A model generated the notes under the pieces. The model saw only the letters and a program-made list of their open reading frames with translations. It did not search any database and was not told where the DNA came from. From Hyphomicrobiaceae bacterium (GTDB taxonomy: Bacteria; Pseudomonadota; Alphaproteobacteria; Rhizobiales; Hyphomicrobiaceae), in the NCBI GenBank assembly GCA_022842785.1, contig JALHOW010000002.1, forward strand, positions 372,001-436,000: a stretch of 64,000 nucleotides of DNA, read 5' to 3'. Numbering within the stretch: position 1 is the stretch's first letter; each line of letters begins with the position of its first letter. A program made the position numbers and the translations under genes. Below are positions 30,435 through 35,911 of this stretch, piece by piece.

Positions 30435-32225
30435 CTAGCGATCGCGGAACTCACCGAGCAGCGGTGTGATACGGCGGAAAGCAACGCGCCGGTTATGTCG
30501 CTCGGGGGCTTCAGTCTGTATCTTGAGATACTGCTCGCCATAGCCTTGCGTGACGAGGTTCTCGACTGGCACGCCGAACTCGGAGACAAGGATATCGGCG
30601 ACGGACTCTGCACGCCGATCGGACAGCGTCAGATTGTCCTCATCGGACCCGACGGCATCCGTATGCCCCTCGACGAGAAACATCTCGGCCTCGTTGCGCT
30701 CCAGCATCCGCTGGACGATGCGCGCCAGACGGGCGAGCTTCGGATACTGGTCCGGCGCCACTTCGAACGAGCCGAACTCGAAGTTGACCGTATCGAGGTC
30801 GATGCGGCGCATATGATCGCGCAGCGGCGCGCTGTAGCGGATCTCGTCGAGCGAGTAGCCCCGCTCGAGGCGACTGATCGGCGGCGCCGACAACGCCTCG
30901 TAGAGATCGTCGTCCGAAGCCTCGTCGTAATCGACGATATAGCGATTGCGCGGAATAGTAATCTGCGGGGGCGCTAACGCGAGCCCAACGCCGATGCCTA
31001 GGGCGCCAACGCCAATACCGATGCCGACATCGCGATAGAAGCGACGATTGTCGATGAAGACGACCTCGTGTCCGCCACGGTCACGGCGCCAGCGGCGCAG
31101 AATGCGGCCGTTCCGGTCGACTTCGGTGTAGACGCGGGAGCCGTCAGGACGCTCGAAGTACGTCTCTCGGCGGCCTTCGCCGAGATCCCGCGAGCGAGCG
31201 TTAGGGCTGAAGCGCTCAAACGCGCGGCCCTCGTCGCGGCGGATGACCATGCGGCCCTGGTCACGAATGATCACCCGGTTGCCGGGCTCCTCGATGACAC
31301 GGCGGCCGCCCTCGACGCGCTCGACGCGGCCCTTCTTGACCTCATCCAGTCGCTCGGGTCCGCTGCGCTGAGGGCGCTGCCAGCGCCCTTCTCTCGGCCC
31401 ATCGCCGCCACCGAAACGCGGCTGCCCATCCGGACGCCCATCTCGCTCGCGACCTGGCTGCTGACCGAAGCGATCATGATCCGGCCCACCGCGATCAGGC
31501 CCAGCGTCGCGACGCTCGCGGGATTGATCCGGCTGCCCGGGGCGCGCCTGCTCTGGACTACGTCCGCGCCGACCATCGTCGCTACCTGATGGTTGATCGC
31601 GCGGCGGCATCACCTGCCGCTGCTGCTCAGGCTCGCCTTTTGGACCACCTGGGGGTGGACCGCGACCGACGTCGGGCCGTCCCGGCGGCTCTGTTTGCCG
31701 AGGCGGCGCAACCTGACGCTGCTCCTGAGGCTCACCTTTTGGCCCGCCTGGAGGTGCCGTGCGACCGAATTCAGGGCGCTGCGGCAGCTGCTGCGGTTGC
31801 ACCTGCTGAGGCTGAGGCTGTGGTTGCTGCTGCGGCGCCGCGCGCTCGCGCCGGTCGTCCCGCCGCTCTTCACGCCCGGGCCGCTCGCCGCGATCCTGCC
31901 GTCCGGGCTGCGATCCACGCTGGTCCGGCTGTTGCCCACGCTGCTCCTGCTGTTGCGGCGGCGGTGCGGCGCGCTCGCCGGAACGTCCGCGCTCCTGGCC
32001 TCGGTCTTGGCCCCGCTCCTGCGGCCGTTCTTGCGGCCGTTCCTGGCGCTTCTGCTCGCGCTGGCGGCGGTCCTGATCGTCCTGATCCTTGTCTCTCTCC
32101 TGTGACCGCTGGGCGTGCGCCTCTGGCGCAACCGGCCCGCCAGCAAGCCCGATCCAGCTCGTCCCCGCGAGCGCGGCGGTCATCGCCAGCGGCAGCAGCT
32201 TCGAACCCTTGGTACGTCGTGTCAT
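30435..32225 (-). CDS. OmpA family protein with long Gln/Arg/Pro/Gly-rich low-complexity region
   Basis: C-terminal OmpA domain: MFLVEGHTDAVGSDEDNLTLSDRRAESVADILVSEFGVPVENLVTQGYGEQYL...RRVAFRRI; N-terminal signal peptide. Confidence 0.85.
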   Translation of the reverse strand: MTRRTKGSKLLPLAMTAALAGTSWIGLAGGPVAPEAHAQRSQERDKDQDDQDRRQREQKRQERPQERPQERGQDRGQERGRSGERAAPPPQQQEQRGQQPDQRGSQPGRQDRGERPGREERRDDRRERAAPQQQPQPQPQQVQPQQLPQRPEFGRTAPPGGPKGEPQEQRQVAPPRQTEPPGRPDVGRGPPPGGPKGEPEQQRQVMPPRDQPSGSDDGRRGRSPEQARPGQPDQSRERRDAGPDRGGPDHDRFGQQPGRERDGRPDGQPRFGGGDGPREGRWQRPQRSGPERLDEVKKGRVERVEGGRRVIEEPGNRVIIRDQGRMVIRRDEGRAFERFSPNARSRDLGEGRRETYFERPDGSRVYTEVDRNGRILRRWRRDRGGHEVVFIDNRRFYRDVGIGIGVGALGIGVGLALAPPQITIPRNRYIVDYDEASDDDLYEALSAPPISRLERGYSLDEIRYSAPLRDHMRRIDLDTVNFEFGSFEVAPDQYPKLARLARIVQRMLERNEAEMFLVEGHTDAVGSDEDNLTLSDRRAESVADILVSEFGVPVENLVTQGYGEQYLKIQTEAPERHNRRVAFRRITPLLGEFRDR

Positions 32226-33598: not shown

Positions 33599-35911
33599 CT
33601 ACTGACCGGCGACGCTCATGCCATAGACATAGTACGCCGCGACCACCACGAGCGCTGGAATGATCGCGACATGCAGGAACTCCAGCGCGCTCACCAGCCA
33701 GCGCCGGGCGGCAATGACCGGATTGATCCTGAGCACCGTGATCGCGATCATGATGCTCACCATCATGTAGTCGAATACGAATATTCGATCCGAGAGCGTC
33801 GCCGTGTCGGAATCGAGCTTCGGCAATGAAATATACAGCGCAACCGCCGAGAGCAGCGCAGTCACCTGGATCGCAACGATCGAATCGAAGCGCGACATCG
33901 GAATGAATATGGAGAGGTAGGAAATGCCGAGGATGAAGCCCAGCGGCACGACCACACGGAGGAAATAGTCGGTCGTCTCGCGCCGCATCTGCCAGACGAA
34001 GCTCGCTTTGTAGAACGGCGCGACGCTTGCCTCATGCGTGAAGGAATCGATGACCGGCACGAAGTCTTCGTCATAACCCACGTAGTGCGCAATGGGCGCC
34101 CAGTTCTCCGTGATGACGCGTGCGTCGCGCAATGACACGGGCGGCGGCTGGACGATGAAGGCCGCATCACTGCGGCGCGGCTGCACCTCGATGGAGAAAC
34201 TCTGCGTGTCGAAGGGGAATGTCTCGAGCCGCGGCTCGAAGAGGAAGCGCCCGACAACCTTGTAGACCTTCATCGATGCCGGATAGATGCGATCGCTGGA
34301 TCCACCGTGAAGGGGCTCGATCGTGATCTGGCGACCGTGCGTGCGCGGGTCGATGTAGGCGTTCGCGAACTCGATTTCTCCGATATCGACGTTTGGATTG
34401 TCGTGGAGCGACAGATAGAACTCCGCAAAGTACGTCTTCTCGTTGTCATCGACGTGATGCGCCTTGACGAGATCGATGTCCATGTAGAGCGTCTGGATGC
34501 GCCGGAAGGTACCGTCGCGCGCGCGCCGGAATTGGACAGGCGCGAGCTGCAGACGGCCGAGGGCGCGCGGCAGGATCATGATGAACGGCGTGCGCGCGGC
34601 CGTGCGCGTCGTCGGATCGAACGACCAGTTCTCGAATGTGCCACGATAGGCGCCGCGCCCCACGGCGTAGGCCGTCGTAATGCGCGACACAGCTGCCGCA
34701 CGCAGCGTTTGAACATCGGCACTGCGATCCGCCCCCCGCAGGACAGCAGCTATCAGCGAGATCATGTCCGCATATCGCACACCAGTGGCGATCGCGCGCA
34801 TGTTCGCTGGCTCGAAGGGATCGCGGATGCCGCGGACGTCAGGCCGTTCCTCGCATTCACCCTTCGCCCAGCCCGGCGCGCGCGCGTTTTTGCGTCCCTC
34901 GAAGATCCAGGGATTTGACGGGGACAGCACGGCAAGCTTGCGCAGGCGGCCATTGTAGAGTTCGGGCAGATTGTCCCAAGCGAGCTGATAGATCGGGCTC
35001 GGGTAGGACATCGTCACCTTGCCGGGGAGCGCATCGATGCGCCCGCCGACGAACATCGCCGGCGTCACACCTGCAGCCTGCAGGGCCGCCATGACATCGC
35101 CACTCGCCCGCGATCCGACCGCGAGATAGATGAAATCGGGCTGACGCTGGACGAGATCCGCCACCATCGCGTTCAGCTCTGCCGGATCCGGCTTGGCATC
35201 GACGAGCTTGATGCGGTGATCACCGCCGATCGCTGAATCGCCGAGCAGGCCGACTAGGCTCTCGCGCAGTGCCTCGCTGAGTACGGAACCCGAAGCGCCG
35301 ATGAATGCCGGCCGCTTGAAGCCCATGCTGCGCGTGAACGCGGCGATCACGGGCGCCCGCTCTTCATCCTGCGACGCACGCGTGGTGAAGACGTTCGAAT
35401 GGCCGGCGAACAGGGCGCTGACGGAGATTTCCGACAGGAACGGGATGCTGCTTCGGCGTATATCCTCTCCGAGCGTATCGAACACCGCCTTGGCGCGATT
35501 GGAGTTGCCGAGACCAATCATGCCGATCATGTTGCGGTCGGCGAGCACGGCACGCATGTTCGCGATCGCCTTGGCATCGTTGCGCTCGTCATCGAAGACC
35601 TTGATCGCGATCGGCCGACCGGCGACGCCTCCACGCTGATTGATGCGCGCCTGCTCATCGGCCGCGAGCCGACGGATGGCGGCAAGATCACCCGGGTCGT
35701 GGCAAAGGTCGTCACGCGGCTGGCTCACGAACAGCGCGACGTGGTAGGGCGGTCCCTGGGCGGCCTCCGCCTCCTTGATGGCTCTGGCAGGATCCGCCGC
35801 GCACGCGATCCAGAATGCCGCCAGCAGCGCCAGCAGGACAGGGCGGCTCAACTCCCCCAGGAACCGTGCGGCACGTCCGCCGGCAGCAGCCACACTCATG
35901 TCGCCACTCAA
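33599..35911 (-). CDS. type-1 periplasmic-binding domain fused to a pentameric ligand-gated ion channel (Cys-loop-receptor superfamily)
   Basis: N-term PBP-1: DLAAIRRLAADEQARINQRGGVAGRPIAIKVFDDE; channel ECD: YFAEFYLSLHDNPN, RLETFPFDTQSFSIEVQ; M1 DYFLRVVVPLGFILGISYLSIFIP, M2 DSIVAIQVTALLSAVALYISLP, M3 LSDRIFVFDYMMVSIMIAITVL, M4 near the C-terminus. Confidence 0.85.
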   Translation of the reverse strand: MSGDMSVAAAGGRAARFLGELSRPVLLALLAAFWIACAADPARAIKEAEAAQGPPYHVALFVSQPRDDLCHDPGDLAAIRRLAADEQARINQRGGVAGRPIAIKVFDDERNDAKAIANMRAVLADRNMIGMIGLGNSNRAKAVFDTLGEDIRRSSIPFLSEISVSALFAGHSNVFTTRASQDEERAPVIAAFTRSMGFKRPAFIGASGSVLSEALRESLVGLLGDSAIGGDHRIKLVDAKPDPAELNAMVADLVQRQPDFIYLAVGSRASGDVMAALQAAGVTPAMFVGGRIDALPGKVTMSYPSPIYQLAWDNLPELYNGRLRKLAVLSPSNPWIFEGRKNARAPGWAKGECEERPDVRGIRDPFEPANMRAIATGVRYADMISLIAAVLRGADRSADVQTLRAAAVSRITTAYAVGRGAYRGTFENWSFDPTTRTAARTPFIMILPRALGRLQLAPVQFRRARDGTFRRIQTLYMDIDLVKAHHVDDNEKTYFAEFYLSLHDNPNVDIGEIEFANAYIDPRTHGRQITIEPLHGGSSDRIYPASMKVYKVVGRFLFEPRLETFPFDTQSFSIEVQPRRSDAAFIVQPPPVSLRDARVITENWAPIAHYVGYDEDFVPVIDSFTHEASVAPFYKASFVWQMRRETTDYFLRVVVPLGFILGISYLSIFIPMSRFDSIVAIQVTALLSAVALYISLPKLDSDTATLSDRIFVFDYMMVSIMIAITVLRINPVIAARRWLVSALEFLHVAIIPALVVVAAYYVYGMSVAGQ

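Follow-up and report, generated by a model that had tools for sequence, protein, structure and literature searches.

The 64,000-nucleotide stretch of Hyphomicrobiaceae DNA analysed here (the window) carries on its minus strand a complete gene in which a likely signal peptide, a type I periplasmic-binding-protein (PBP-I) domain, the extracellular domain (ECD) of a pentameric ligand-gated ion channel (pLGIC) and transmembrane helices M1-M4 follow one another in one polypeptide. The host is a soil or water bacterium of the Hyphomicrobium group. On balance, we favor the view that the product is an exported, ligand-gated cation channel of the inner membrane, probably homopentameric, with a periplasmic PBP-I sensor on each subunit.

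The architecture as such is not new. It was first noted in 2005 in Magnetospirillum magnetotacticum and Bradyrhizobium japonicum, where a chemoreceptor role was proposed for pLGICs with an N-terminal PBP-I domain (Tasneem et al. 2005, PMC549065). Compared by description, these alphaproteobacterial proteins share with ours the order signal peptide, PBP-I, LBD/ECD and 4-TM channel in one chain. The sequence-only reading that preceded this work had allowed that PBP-pLGIC fusions may have appeared in surveys, a statement that is correct and falls short of a paper describing exactly that architecture. Associations of pLGICs with other domains have been evidenced at the genome level only (Jaiteh 2016, PMC4795631), and a 2025 paper names DeCLIC as the sole pLGIC with a partially characterised N-terminal domain (PMC12664993). 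Known from genomes for 20 years, PBP-fused pLGICs are the subject of no experiment that we found in the open-access literature, as the earlier reading had anticipated. What is new is a large, distinct and well-populated Hyphomicrobiaceae subfamily, to which the window gene belongs, with a near-invariant cation-type M2, a cysteine pair in the PBP and loss of LivJ residues. Its many orthologues (cultured Hyphomicrobium facile and Filomicrobium insigne among them), its clear cation-type pore and its separately expressible sensor make the question of what a sensor-bearing bacterial pLGIC detects directly testable.

Gene structure and the channel half

The reading frame is open throughout from 35911 to 33599 (minus strand), giving 770 codons when counted from a TTG, and this count is used for residue numbering throughout. 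The single uninterrupted frame described earlier is therefore an intact gene. The likelier start is an ATG four codons further in, at residue 5, which gives a gene of 766 aa at 33599-35899, because this codon aligns with the starts chosen in two same-genus orthologues, in which MSVAA is conserved. The hydropathy profile displays a hydrophobic stretch at residues 21-39, followed by A-R-A at 42-44. Together with the alignment, this pattern makes the N-terminus a likely Sec signal peptide (35780-35899, minus strand), with A-R-A as the putative signal-peptidase motif that would set the cleavage site.

The gene is present in one copy in the genome and looks monocistronic. Downstream lies a convergent gene for a luciferase-like oxidoreductase (monooxygenase), at a distance of 12 bp; upstream lies a divergent TPP enzyme gene, as already noted in the sequence-only reading, and beyond it a TRAP transporter (DctP/M/Q). 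Neighbors conserved among the relatives were found solely within closely related groups, and none would name a ligand. In particular, genes for an RND pump and a LysR regulator are repeatedly nearby in groups of closely related Hyphomicrobium and not beyond them; no functional link is therefore drawn, and the neighborhood was abandoned as a clue to the ligand. Scanning for promoters and terminators returned nothing exceeding chance, and a plasmid search with the window protein gave no match. Elsewhere in the window, 30438-32225 (minus strand) encodes a 596-aa OmpA-family protein with a long, low-complexity N-terminal region rich in Q, R and P.

Pfam and NCBIfam returned no match on the channel half, so we resorted to family profiles and fold comparison. 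The Pfam search suggested in the earlier reading thus succeeded for the sensor half (Peripla_BP_6) and failed for the channel, the Neur_chan models matching neither the window protein nor 29 homologues. Given the fold and the presence of all signature residues, this silence is a limit of sensitivity rather than a defining trait. Searched against the PDB, the family profile matched DeCLIC best (7e-11), followed by GLIC (about 1e-7), where the match spans the whole channel, from position 10 to position 298 of a 316-position profile. An AF2 model of the full protein, built with 15 orthologues (mean pLDDT 78.8, pTM 0.72), matches in Foldseek both LIV-binding proteins and GLIC (3eam; E 3.1e-14, TM 0.70 on the target). 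The channel half modelled alone (pLDDT 84) superposes on GLIC with a TM of 0.72 and a Foldseek E-value of 1e-16, which settles in the affirmative whether the C-terminal half has the pLGIC fold. The complete Cys-loop-superfamily channel proposed for residues ~465-765 resolves into an extracellular beta-sandwich (33989-34519, minus strand; residues ~465-641), supported by the AF2 strands, the GLIC/DeCLIC profile and Foldseek, and a transmembrane domain M1-M4 (33602-33988, minus strand; residues 642-770), supported by hydropathy and the model. The M3-M4 loop is short and the model has no cytoplasmic domain.

The seven most conserved pLGIC positions, which include the [F/Y]PxD signature (Table 1 of Jaiteh 2016, PMC4795631), are all present: F565, P566, D568, W604 (beta9), R644 (pre-M1), P656 (M1) and P697 (M2-M3). 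P566, D568, W604, R644 and P656 are invariant in 58 homologues, and P697 is found in 48. The Pro-loop F565-P566-F567-D568 (34208-34219, minus strand) corresponds to the FPFD motif recognised earlier, and indeed without flanking cysteines: the channel half has none, and the disulfide pair that flanks the loop in metazoan Cys-loop receptors is absent. Pore helix M2 (33824-33886, minus strand) runs from D676 at -2' to L696 at 18'. Aligned on GLIC, it reads D/E at -2', T/A at 2', T at 6', L at 9', A at 13' and mostly L at 16'. Column counts over the 58 homologues show TIQVTALLSA(V/I)ALY to be near-invariant, with positions 3'-9' practically so; Leu 9' is universal and -2' is acidic in 52. By analogy with characterised pLGICs, the acidic -2' ring suggests that the channel is cation-selective. 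The remaining six homologues have Asn or Gly at -2', and selectivity may vary accordingly within the family.

The channel fold, the Cys-less Pro-loop, the acidic -2' and the coupling residues are shared with GLIC, the proton-gated channel of Gloeobacter; unlike the window protein, to which it is about 15% identical, GLIC is without an N-terminal sensor domain. DeCLIC, a prokaryotic pLGIC from Desulfofustis, resembles the window protein in having a large N-terminal domain in the periplasm, but this domain consists of two beta jelly-roll lobes and is not a PBP (PMC9897478, PMC12664993).

The PBP-I half and the orthologous family

The PBP-I domain occupies residues ~55-460 (34534-35749, minus strand), slightly more than the ~55-440 first assigned to a Leu/Ile/Val-type binding domain. 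As to the fold, that assignment stands. Peripla_BP_6 matches residues 88-289 (E 5.8e-16; 59.5 bits against a cut-off of 31.7), a profile built from the PBP regions of 29 homologues finds LIV-type binding proteins in the PDB (2e-15), profile-profile comparison with LivJ/LivK of E. coli K-12 gives a probability of 95%, and Foldseek retrieves the LIV-binding proteins 3hut (E 1.4e-14), 3td9 and 4mlc with the full-length model. With a Pfam score that clears the cut-off and a fold of two lobes, the domain belongs to the PBP-I class.

The ligand is a different matter. In LivJ, S79, T102, Y150, Y202 and E226 coordinate the alpha-amino and carboxylate groups of the bound amino acid. In an alignment of at most 20% identity, and therefore provisionally, Ser79 alone of the five is retained in the window protein (as S137), the positions of Thr102, Tyr150, Tyr202 and Glu226 holding V, L, G and G. 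An equivalent of Ser79 is present in most homologues. With most of the coordinating residues lost, an alpha-amino acid coordinated in the LivJ manner is an improbable ligand; the label "Leu/Ile/Val type" fits the fold and may be wrong where the ligand is concerned. The amino-acid sensor of the sequence-only reading accordingly finds no support beyond the fold. Unlike LivJ/LivK, whose two-lobed fold it shares, the domain is fused to a channel and has an extra pair of cysteines. The only cysteines of the protein are C37, C70 and C353. Cys70 (35702-35704, minus strand) and Cys353 (34853-34855, minus strand) co-occur: both are present in 46 of 58 homologues and both absent in 11, a raw count that ignores kinship, the one exception being seemingly due to an alignment shift. 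This pattern points to a predicted C70-C353 disulfide.

Full-length, single-frame orthologues exist in at least 50 genomes. The fusion, conserved over a long time, is found in about 21 of 36 sampled Hyphomicrobiaceae genomes, where contig ends or frameshifts interrupt a few of the copies. A named-genome collection has it at 70 loci, most of them in the same family; the two samples overlap in genomes and the counts are not additive. The 70 loci include cultured Hyphomicrobium facile, Filomicrobium insigne and a Rhodomicrobium sp., as well as a single Bacteroidota, Adhaeribacter terrigena (28%). Comparison with the two nearest orthologues gives a dN/dS of 0.10-0.11 for the whole protein, with 0.11 for the PBP, 0.07-0.08 for the linker, 0.05 for the ECD and 0.06 for the transmembrane domain, which shows both halves to be under purifying selection at the sequence level. 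Throughout the family the channel is more conserved than the sensor, which is what one would predict for a constant pore combined with varying ligand specificities.

Six loci (L075, L076, L077, L078, L082 and L085) form a divergent clade of PBP-pLGIC paralogues in the Hyphomicrobium group, in which both PBP cysteines are absent and -2' is mostly Asn, with Gly in a single case. The two types occur together in at least one genome, that of Filomicrobium ih4 (L054 and L078). Separately, three contigs from metagenome-assembled genomes titled Akkermansia muciniphila or Devosia equisanguinis (L081, L022, L033) carry Hyphomicrobiaceae-like genes and are probably mislabelled or contaminated.

Proposed gating and its alternatives

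In the model that we favor, subunits would be exported to the inner membrane and probably assemble as a homopentamer, the two-lobed PBP-I sensor of each sitting in the periplasm above the ring of ECDs. Binding of a periplasmic small molecule would close the lobes, and the resulting strain would travel along the short linker into the beta-sandwich of the ECD and from there via the coupling interface formed by Pro-loop Asp568 and pre-M1 Arg644 to M2. The pore, with its acidic -2' ring and Leu 9' gate, would open or be modulated, letting cations flow into the cytoplasm. We infer that the PBP domain gates the channel directly; the direction of gating, like export, pentamer, cation selectivity and ligand, belongs to the model's conjectural part. 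The joining of PBP and ECD to MscS pores (see below) fits their being a sensor unit upstream of the pore. Ionotropic glutamate receptors, the analogy offered originally, resemble the protein in principle only, as a PBP-type domain over a ligand-gated pore: they are tetramers, their agonist domain is a PBP-II interrupted by the pore, and their channel fold is unrelated to that of pLGICs.

The main rival, to which we assign a low but appreciable probability, holds that the PBP serves allostery or assembly and has given up ligand binding, the agonist acting at the ECD interface or the channel being gated by protons or divalents. There are precedents for both parts: some amino-terminal domains of ionotropic glutamate receptors are allosteric or assembly domains that bind no ligand, and GLIC and DeCLIC are gated by protons or divalents. 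The loss of most LivJ ligand-coordinating residues keeps this explanation alive, as the domain could indeed have lost ligand binding, and the PBP also has roughly double the evolutionary rate of the ECD. Even so, an omega of 0.11 denotes purifying selection on the PBP, the serine equivalent to LivJ Ser79 is kept in most homologues, and other PBP-pLGICs score strongly as canonical PBPs (Peripla_BP_6 down to 2e-43).

We give little credence to the PBP still feeding an ABC transporter, with the channel part as a membrane anchor or minor partner. The domain does belong to the ABC solute-binding fold, and a relative of the MscS-joined form bears the annotation ABC substrate-binding protein, but no ABC permease or ATPase genes lie beside the window gene, its relatives have no conserved neighbors, and the pore helix and coupling residues are the most conserved part of the protein. 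Marginally less credible again, and with nothing specific in its favor, is a metabotropic-like receptor whose pLGIC part signals without conducting: the pattern of pore-lining M2 residues is nearly identical in 58 homologues, and the short M3-M4 loop and missing cytoplasmic domain speak against it too. Finally, an artefact, whether two adjacent genes merged by sequencing error or a chance resemblance of the C-terminal half to a channel, has in its favor that Pfam detects the PBP half alone and is rejected with near certainty, since more than 50 assemblies have the orthologue in one uninterrupted frame, dN/dS is around 0.1, the linker itself has an omega of 0.07-0.08, and the DeCLIC/GLIC profile (7e-11 to 1e-7) and Foldseek (1e-16) matches identify the channel.

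Wider relatives and pores of the MscS type

A full-length profile scan of the class retrieved, besides the window itself, generic PBPs only and was replaced by a channel-only profile. With the latter, hits came from 4 of the 388 class genomes and from 24 of the 397 phylum genomes, and most lay in frames of 710-830 aa; nearly all of the matches scanned with Pfam contain Peripla_BP_6 and are thus other PBP-pLGICs. They include a second alphaproteobacterial lineage with a canonical LIV-BP, family f82 (L123, 220-2463; L124, 874-3111). Its M2, AAAKVTVAITAGLSGAV, has Lys at 0' and lacks an acidic residue at -2', and the channel may therefore have a different ion selectivity. The window protein is placed apart from f82, in a distinct clade with long branches, by the PBP tree and the ECD tree alike. 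In the PBP tree, window-type PBPs form their own clade (support 98/99). A topology that unites all fused PBPs is rejected only at the margin (p-AU 0.045), and the branches are long; the PBP of the window protein may or may not share an origin with the others. Two class genomes have PBP-I domains in frames of more than 1000 aa (L113, 1293 aa; L117, 1039 aa), which may be further PBP-receptor fusions.

In several genomes the channel-profile match does not extend beyond the ECD. The frames concerned are 935-1190 aa long, and Pfam identifies in them an N-terminal Peripla_BP_6 and a C-terminal MS_channel_2nd (the MscS beta-domain, down to 4e-21). Such single-frame combinations of PBP-I, pLGIC-type ECD and MscS pore occur at L154, L155, L145, L146, L152, L147, L178, L180 and L182-L184, and on plasmids at L173 (Azospirillum sp. 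B510) and L174 (A. brasilense Sp7); L154 adds a cyclic-nucleotide-binding domain. About 10 genomes of the phylum sample (Pseudomonadota) have this form, as do nine Azospirillum plasmid records, those of Sp7 and B510 included; Azospirillum WP_012976639.1 is one such protein. Where annotated, as in B510, the protein is called an ABC (transporter) substrate-binding protein, and no publication on the architecture was found in the open-access literature.

Profile-profile comparison matches the middle domain of the MscS forms with the ECDs of PBP-pLGICs at a probability of 99.7% (1.2e-26) and with the window family at 97.7% (1.5e-12), against 1.7% for a PBP negative control. As profile searches between the two sets are also reciprocal, the middle domain is, by sequence homology, a pLGIC-type ECD; its own profile found no structure in the PDB. 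The Pro-loop Asp is replaced by Gly in all six aligned MscS forms (PFG, PYG or AFG). These proteins, which have no pLGIC pore, have thus lost the residue that pairs with the pre-M1 Arg in pLGICs.

Repeated pore swapping, which the PBP tree suggests with three changes, finds no support in the ECD tree. There the MscS-joined ECDs are united in one clade (98/94), a topology consistent with a single pore exchange, and we claim no more than one. We lean towards regarding PBP-I plus ECD as a portable ligand-sensing cassette placed on two unrelated pores, pLGIC and MscS, the Pro-loop Asp having been lost with the pLGIC pore. If so, the MscS forms would be gated by ligand, instead of or besides tension; they would be a case of a Cys-loop ECD at work in the absence of the pore to which it belongs, and would provide an MscS channel with ligand gating.
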